From the NCBI GenBank assembly GCA_000701725.1, contig JNJQ01000025.1, forward strand, positions 1 to 32,263: DNA of 32,263 nucleotides, written 5' to 3'. The translations under genes were made by a program, and so were the position numbers. Positions 4,073 through 5,792 of this stretch are shown one piece after another. Numbering within the stretch: the first letter of the stretch is position 1; the number at the start of each line of letters is the position of its first letter. The notes beneath the pieces are model-generated. The model made no database searches. It was not told where the DNA came from and was given only the letters and a program-made list of their open reading frames with translations. Source of the stretch: Erysipelotrichaceae bacterium NK3D112 (lineage in GTDB: Bacteria > Bacillota_I > Bacilli_A > Erysipelotrichales > Erysipelotrichaceae).

Positions 4073-4098
4073 CTTTAAGCACGCATAGAGGCTTAAGG
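4073..4098 (+). promoter_or_regulatory. Leader hairpin upstream of rpmE
   Basis: CTTTAAGC (4073-4080) and GCTTAAGG (4091-4098) form an 8-bp stem with one G-U pair and a 10-nt loop. It ends two bases before the Shine-Dalgarno GAAGGGAG (4101-4108). The placement is what an autoregulatory ribosomal protein leader would show. I cannot confirm that it matches a known L31 leader family. Confidence 0.5.
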
Positions 4099-4115
4099 CA
4101 GAAGGGAGACGAACC

Positions 4116-4319: not shown

Positions 4320-4341
4320 GAAGCTGCGTAAGCAGCTTTTT
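4319..4341 (+). terminator. rpmE terminator
   Basis: AAGCTGC (4321-4327) and GCAGCTT (4332-4338) pair around a GTAA loop, followed by a T run. It begins right after the rpmE stop codon. Confidence 0.88.
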
Positions 4342-4553
4342 AAATTCATCCCTGCCCAAAATGGTCAAAATGAACAGTTGCCGTTTTGGACAATCAGGTC
4401 TGTATCGGTTCTGTGACTGAACAGGTGATACCGTTATACATGCGAACACGATGCTTAACTGTCTGAACGCTGTATAAAGCTCAGACCATTCAACTTGCCC
4501 TCCCCAGGGAGGATAGAAGCCGGTCTTCATGATTGTGCTTCTGTCCTTTTTTT
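4342..4553 (+). ncRNA. Candidate structured RNA between rpmE and rpoD
   Basis: This is the only gene-free stretch above 300 bases (4320-4631), and it can form successive helices. A 9-bp hairpin pairs CCAAAATGG (4356-4364) with CCGTTTTGG (4381-4389). GGTCTG (4397-4402) pairs with CAGACC (4482-4487) and encloses two arms: TATC-G-GTTC / GAAC-GATA (4403-4430), and TTATACA (4434-4440) / TGTATAA (4471-4477) with an inner GCG/CGC. A short CCTCC/GGAGG hairpin follows, then a 10-bp terminator. The layout resembles a three-way junction element with an expression platform, or a small RNA. I matched it to no known riboswitch, T-box, 6S or SRP RNA. Its own promoter is unclear: TTGCCG-17-TGTATC (4378-4406) is weak and would start inside the element. 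Confidence 0.5.
4511..4553 (+). terminator. Strong terminator upstream of rpoD
   Basis: GGATAGAAGC (4511-4520) and GCTTCTGTCC (4537-4546) form a 10-bp stem with one G-U pair and a 16-nt loop, followed by seven T (4547-4553). It ends 78 nt before the rpoD start, so it terminates something transcribed from the rpmE-rpoD gap, or acts as an attenuator. Confidence 0.88.
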
Positions 4554-4592
4554 GTGAATTTTCCTTCACTTTTTCGTTTTGCATCTGTGTAG

Positions 4593-4598
4593 TAAAAT
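4593..4598 (+). promoter_or_regulatory. Likely -10 box of rpoD
   Basis: TAAAAT at 4593-4598 lies between the upstream terminator and rpoD. The -35 place (near 4570) is only T-rich. A leader of about 28 nt would include the AGGAAGG ribosome binding site at 4617-4623. Confidence 0.5.
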
Positions 4599-4631: not shown

Positions 4632-5792
4632 ATGAAAAACGAACAGGGTGAACTGAAAACTCTGGATGCTGTCTGTAGTGAATTTCTGGAACGATCCCAG
4701 AAGGGTGAGGAAATCACCCAGAAAGATCTGATGGAAGAAGCCGAAAAGAACCATCTCAGTGAAGAGGAAGAGGATCAGCTTTTTGACTGGGTACAGCAGC
4801 AGGGTATTTTCTTCAGCAGCGATGAAGAGATGCTTGATGAGGAAGCAGGAACGGATGACGCATCCGAAGACGATAATGAGCGCGGACCGGAAGAAGAGGA
4901 TGAACCGGAGACGGATGATTTTCCGGATCCTTATATTGAAAAAGGCAGGCGGAAAACCGTCGGTGATTCCGTCAAAGTATATCTGAAGGAAATCGGGCAG
5001 ATTGCCCTTCTGAGCGCCCAGCAGGAATACGAGGTCGCGAAAAAAGTGGCTGAAGGGGACAAGGAAGCCAAGGATCTGCTCATTTCGAGCAATCTCAGAC
5101 TTGTCGTGGCGATGGCAAAGGAGTATCTTAACCGCGGGCTCTCTTTCCAGGATCTGATCCAGGAAGGCAATATCGGTCTGATGAGGGCGGTGGAGAAGTT
5201 TGATTATTCCAAGGGATTCCGCTTCAGCACATATGCGACATGGTGGATCAGACAGTCCATGGTCAGGGCGATTGCGGACCAGTCCCATGACATCCGTCTG
5301 CCGGTGCATATGACCGAGCAGATCACACGTGTCAAGAAAGTCGAACGCCAGCTTCTTCAGGAGCTGAACAGAGAACCGACCGCGGAGGAAATCGCCGCGA
5401 AAATCGACGGCATGACAGCGGAGAAAATCCGCGATATCCAGAAGATCAGTCTGGATACGCTTTCGCTTGAGTCGCCGGCCGGCGATGAGGACAACAGCAC
5501 CCTCAGCGATTTCATCCAGGACACAAGCGCGGTCGATCCGGTGGCATATGCCAACAGCTCCGTGCTGCGTGAACAGGTGGATATGTTATTGAAGGAGCTT
5601 CCGGAAAGAGAAGAGAAAATTGTTAGAATGAGATTCGGACTGGACGGTACCGGCAAGCCGAAAACACTTGAGGAAGTCGGCAATGAGTGCCGTGTCACAA
5701 GGGAGAGAATCAGACAGATTGAATCCAAGGCACTGCGCAGACTGCACCGCTCGATGCAGATCAACAAACAGTTCAGGGATCTCAGAGACTAA
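4632..5792 (+). CDS. rpoD: Primary (housekeeping) RNA polymerase sigma factor
   Basis: The sigma-70/SigA subunit that directs RNA polymerase to most promoters; 386 residues, close to the Bacillota norm. Residues 1-60 resemble region 1.1, followed by a very acidic linker (about 63-98). Region 1.2 starts near GDSVKVYLKEIGQI (111-124). Region 2 runs about 150-220 with the -10 recognition segment YATWWIRQSMVRA (201-213). Regions 3 and 4 follow, with the -35 recognition helix in VTRERIRQIESKAL near the C terminus. AGGAAGG precedes the ATG. prfA follows after 12 nt, so the two are an operon. The usual partner dnaG is not nearby, which is an odd location for this gene. Confidence 0.97.
   Translation: MKNEQGELKTLDAVCSEFLERSQKGEEITQKDLMEEAEKNHLSEEEEDQLFDWVQQQGIFFSSDEEMLDEEAGTDDASEDDNERGPEEEDEPETDDFPDPYIEKGRRKTVGDSVKVYLKEIGQIALLSAQQEYEVAKKVAEGDKEAKDLLISSNLRLVVAMAKEYLNRGLSFQDLIQEGNIGLMRAVEKFDYSKGFRFSTYATWWIRQSMVRAIADQSHDIRLPVHMTEQITRVKKVERQLLQELNREPTAEEIAAKIDGMTAEKIRDIQKISLDTLSLESPAGDEDNSTLSDFIQDTSAVDPVAYANSSVLREQVDMLLKELPEREEKIVRMRFGLDGTGKPKTLEEVGNECRVTRERIRQIESKALRRLHRSMQINKQFRDLRD

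Follow-up and report, generated by a model that had tools for sequence, protein, structure and literature searches.

In Staphylococcus aureus, UCCCC motifs of small RNAs (sRNAs) and of the icaR 3'UTR pair with Shine-Dalgarno (SD) sequences (PMC3868564, PMC9217828). 6S RNA, a regulator of another shape, folds as a rod with a large central bubble and a long closing stem (PMC8876501). In this study, we analysed a structured RNA of about 155 nt encoded between rpmE and an RpoD-like sigma factor gene of Erysipelotrichaceae bacterium NK3D112 (G000), within a window of 32,263 nt (contig JNJQ01000025.1; all window features below are on its forward strand). Judged from sequence comparison, it is a previously unlisted, narrowly distributed structured RNA family in uncultured Erysipelotrichaceae. 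The reading we prefer, with a probability of roughly 0.45, is that of a small regulatory RNA, specific to this lineage, that has a C-rich seed and its own terminator and would act against SD sequences.

The neighbouring gene rpmE (ribosomal protein L31, 4116-4319; TIGR00105 and NF000612) is followed by its own terminator T1 (4321-4341; -10 to -13 kcal/mol). Behind T1 come a diverged stretch (about 4342-4394) with no resemblance even between close relatives, the conserved RNA from P1 to the terminator T-run (4395-4553, as delimited by an alignment of six species and by covariance-model matches), the sigma-gene promoter (4571-4598) and the sigma gene (4632-5792). The -10 element of this promoter, TAAAAT at 4593-4598, lies 39 nt from the T-run in five of the six genomes that carry the RNA and farther away in G078, by an insertion. 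In most of the RNA-less relatives examined, a normal rpmE terminator is soon followed by a sigma promoter with the same form of -10, and the rpmE-sigma gap was short in those checked. Upstream of rpmE, a leader hairpin (CUUUAAGC...GCUUAAGGCAGAAGGGAG, 4073-4108) shows compensatory changes and is kept across the genus; because of its sub-threshold match to the Rfam family L31-Firmicutes (18.7 bits, threshold 33.3), it is probably a variant of the L31 autoregulatory leader. In G003, the sigma gene does not come directly after rpmE (G003:C44:10580-11300); what does come there looks by eye like a transporter gene and an FMN riboswitch.

The initial annotation had placed the RNA between rpmE and the housekeeping rpoD. 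The first flank is confirmed and the second is indeed an RpoD-like sigma gene, but the housekeeping rpoD lies elsewhere, linked to dnaG (G000:C2:190513-191670, about 560 aa). The dnaG-linked RpoD scores above the cut-off of the RpoD equivalog-domain model RpoD_Cterm (401 vs 354 bits), the sigma gene of the window below it (337 vs 354 bits). The latter is a diverged RpoD paralogue, not the housekeeping gene. A second RpoD-like sigma gene adjoining rpmE, besides the dnaG-linked rpoD, is widespread in the genus.

A DNA search over 70 genomes of the genus gave a clear match in five further species. The RNA thus occurs in 6 of the 70, as a single copy that in every case has rpmE on one side and the sigma gene on the other. 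With a covariance model of the six carrier sequences, exactly these six were recovered in the genus (157-173 bits), and over 273 genomes of the family all non-carriers stayed below 27 bits. The exact pattern from P4 to the terminator is confined to the same carriers. Weak model matches in other genera (24-26 bits) were rejected, as they were without the invariant parts. Phage and plasmid collections held no match to the RNA. In viral contigs, the P4 pattern was absent and none of four 18-mer matches was upheld by the covariance model, by which a single match in other genome contigs (L083) was likewise not a member. In a named collection, the records containing a 20-base core were mostly Erysipelotrichaceae MAGs; among these were RUG isolates, whose names we read as pointing to a rumen origin. 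The sigma proteins of carriers are 77-97% identical to that of the window, with the closest relative, G084, at 97%, and 72% is the highest identity among the RNA-less members of the genus that were searched. These identities and the distribution of the carriers fit one acquisition within a single subclade and vertical inheritance thereafter.

A structured RNA had been proposed for the whole of 4342-4553, and the structure signal is real, since the folding energy of these 212 bases, -69.4 kcal/mol, is better than that of all 200 shuffles (mean -49 kcal/mol; z -4.96). The conserved part is smaller, however, and folds differently from what was drawn. The 9-bp hairpin of the initial annotation (CCAAAA.../...TTTTGG, about 4355-4390) belongs to the stretch that is not conserved, and even G084 lacks it; the closing helix drawn there, GGTCTG/CAGACC (4397-4402/4482-4487), is not kept as a full helix and shares bases with the covarying P3. 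The two arms correspond approximately to P2 and P3. The alignment of the gap among relatives with a covariation check, which had been suggested there, bore fruit in the form of the homologues in five further species and compensatory changes in P3.

The variable hairpin P3 (GUCUGA/UCAGAC, 4461-4486) pairs 4461-4466 with 4481-4486, and five of its six pairs occur as at least two Watson-Crick types. We wrote the helices P1 and P3 by hand from the sequences of the six species and permuted the partners. All 36 of 36 P3 pairs were kept with own partners, against a mean of 23.4 with swapped ones, and of 720 permutations just the one with the true partners reached 36; by this test P3 is the best-supported helix of the RNA. 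The closing helix P1 would join CAGGU (4395-4399) to ACUUG (4493-4497). By duplex energies it is weak in the window, and long duplexes are formed in G014, G078 and G085; the 5' strand of relatives reads GAGGGC or AGGGC. Its own-partner value was reached by 28 of 720 permutations, and because own partners do better than most permutations, P1 pairing is likely rather than proven.

The arm P2 (4402-4454) pairs GUAUCGGUUC with GAAC-A-CGAUGC (4402-4411 with 4444-4454) around a conserved inner loop (UGUGACUGA ... UGAUACC). With 33 of its 53 ungapped columns invariant, it varies too little for much covariation, and the conservation of its 5' strand and loop goes beyond the need of pairing. This surplus, together with the constant sigma neighbour, would suit an RNA that works chiefly through a protein bound at the P2 loop, for example RNA polymerase or the second sigma factor. 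However, a small clade easily keeps its neighbours, the fold does not resemble that of 6S RNA and the 6S candidate lies elsewhere in the genome, so that the chance of this reading appears slim. A slender one, too, falls to the idea of a new RNA class dedicated to the second RpoD-like sigma factor of rumen-type Erysipelotrichaceae, which would sense a ligand or a protein through the invariant P2 loop and would set sigma supply or the activity of sigma or RNA polymerase.

Rfam searches of the window and its relatives, at gathering and permissive thresholds, gave no relevant match, 6S, riboswitches and T-box included. This agrees with the initial annotation, which had seen no riboswitch or T-box parts, and a combined-term literature search found no description of an RNA between rpmE and the sigma gene. 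Its suggestion of a 6S-like RNA did not survive. The size of about 155 nt and the vicinity of a sigma gene, and nothing else, speak for 6S RNA or a second 6S paralogue, but there is no RF00013 match, the fold is a three-way junction, unlike the rod shape with its central bubble that defines 6S RNA (PMC8876501), and the genome holds a separate, better candidate (G000:C2:127589-127769; 40.8 bits, E 9.4e-7, curated threshold 46.4), which contains GGGCACCCACCU. We give this identity almost no credence.

The invariant GCCCUCCCCAGGGAGGAUAGAAG gives a C-rich hairpin, P4 (CCCU(CCCC)AGGG, 4498-4509, or alternatively CCUCC(CCAG)GGAGG), which adjoins the terminator and is our proposed seed. The terminator with its T-run (AGGAUAGAAG...CUUCUGUCCU, 4510-4553), already recognised earlier, is strong in all six carriers (-16 to -22 kcal/mol); its outer stem is invariant and its inner stem varies with some compensation. 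P4 and the terminator together have 41 of 52 columns invariant in the six species, next to the figure for P2 given above, and in the same genomes the sigma gene has 91 of 383 third codon positions and 18 of 98 fourfold sites invariant. By this comparison, the RNA is under stronger constraint than the silent sites of the sigma gene. No partner that could hold the terminator 5' arm before the 3' arm is made is common to the six, and from this we infer constitutive termination and a discrete 3' end. With no conserved antiterminator, the RNA would most likely end as a discrete transcript, either an sRNA or one derived from the rpmE 3'UTR.

This bears on the possibility of a cis-acting attenuator, a riboswitch or protein-binding leader in which P1-P3 sense a ligand and the terminator serves as expression platform for read-through from rpmE to the sigma gene. 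Its position upstream of the sigma gene is constant in 6/6 carriers and the junction has a conserved P2 loop, which speaks for such an element, and we read from the alignment a potential pairing between UUCUGU in P2 and AUAGAA in the 5' arm of the terminator. However, this pairing is just 6 bp including a G-U, and we rejected it as an antiterminator for being too short and not favoured in folds. The terminator 5' arm has no conserved competitor, no mutually exclusive antiterminator was found, riboswitch and T-box models do not match, and the conserved promoter of the sigma gene sits after the terminator. We consider an attenuator unlikely, though it deserves some weight. Of the regulatory leader or discrete sRNA offered by the initial annotation, the discrete structured RNA with a terminator stands; the role as a sigma leader has lost ground, given that a -10 belonging to the sigma gene itself follows the terminator and that no antiterminator is conserved.

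Control by a leader peptide was also considered. The series NTG-TAT-CGG-TTY-TGT-GAC-TGA could be an ORF of six codons and a stop; it is in frame in 6/6 carriers, and the change of TTC to TTT in G084 is synonymous. On the other hand, the start in the window is CTG, the change of GAC to GTC in G085 is non-synonymous and the upstream purines belong to P1. Only two substitutions exist in total, so they are no test of coding, and we regard this reading as very improbable. By alignment, a longer ORF across the RNA is open in G078 and closed in the other carriers, and it was rejected.

According to the preferred reading, P1, P2 and P3 would form a three-way-junction body, and the constitutive intrinsic terminator would set the end of the RNA. 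The P4 hairpin would present its C-rich seed for pairing with the G-rich SD of target mRNAs, whose translation would then be blocked. Since no conserved promoter was found directly upstream of the RNA across the six carriers and the rpmE promoter is strong in all of them, the RNA may come from rpmE transcripts that read through T1; a weak, unrecognised promoter is the other conceivable source. We infer its transcription, its discrete 3' end, the anti-SD action and the targets from sequence. A conserved C-rich motif, as in RsaE-like sRNAs, is present (CCCUCCCC, without change in the six species), and the P4 hairpin is similar to the SD-pairing UCCCC motifs of S. aureus (PMC3868564, PMC9217828). 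Against the sRNA reading speak the lack of a conserved upstream promoter and the state of P4 in the complete fold, where it is closed into a hairpin with just its 4-nt loop unpaired; moreover, the seed alone leaves the strongly constrained P2 body unexplained.

It is also conceivable that the RNA is a stabilising or regulatory element of the rpmE 3'UTR that acts in cis on the rpmE mRNA. It follows rpmE with its strong promoter, no promoter of its own having been found, and cis pairing between SD and 3'UTR is known for icaR (PMC3868564). However, rpmE retains the normal terminator T1 in 6/6 carriers, and there is no sign of co-evolution of its SD, because the SD is identical in RNA-less relatives. 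We find this reading doubtful.

Candidate targets of the proposed sRNA were sought in the six carrier genomes with a single pattern, TGGGGAGG before ATG, which gave about 25 SD-like matches. In G000, G084 and G079, a MarR-type gene, so named by reading its sequence, has CCCTGGGGAGG at its SD; this is exactly the reverse complement of the RNA segment CCUCCCCAGGG (11 complementary bases). Because the match was picked from about 25, the three additional bases carry no significance by themselves. The leader of this gene keeps AAGTACCCTGGGGAGGATAC between species whose flanking DNA has diverged; this near-palindrome, which overlaps the SD, might serve either as an operator or as a site for an sRNA. 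The match is only a lead, since it was chosen after the fact, involves a near-palindrome and belongs to a gene for which the remaining three carriers gave no match at the cut-off applied.

The restriction of the RNA to one subclade and one site makes carriers and non-carriers directly comparable. Should it act as proposed, the uncultured Erysipelotrichaceae, for which little RNA regulation is known, would gain an sRNA that pairs with SD sequences; should it control the second sigma factor, this would represent a new layer of sigma control.

Among known systems, 6S RNA (RF00013) is similar in length and in having a sigma gene as neighbour, but the present RNA is a P1/P2/P3 junction that does not match its model, and the 6S candidate of the genome lies at a different locus. 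The closing helix, the two arms and the terminator are shared with three-way-junction riboswitch candidates that have terminators; here, there is no conserved antiterminator and the downstream gene has its own promoter. The S. aureus icaR 3'UTR (UCCCCUG) also has a C-rich motif downstream of a coding gene, and the present RNA is possibly likewise derived from an mRNA 3'UTR, although it is set apart from rpmE by a first terminator and shows no special conservation of pairing with the rpmE SD. It is not related in sequence or by Rfam to the RsaE/RoxS-type sRNAs and the RNAIII UCCC loops of Firmicutes, and it has a larger junction body and is limited to six Erysipelotrichaceae species. What it shares with them is a terminator at its end and a C-rich motif suited to SD pairing.
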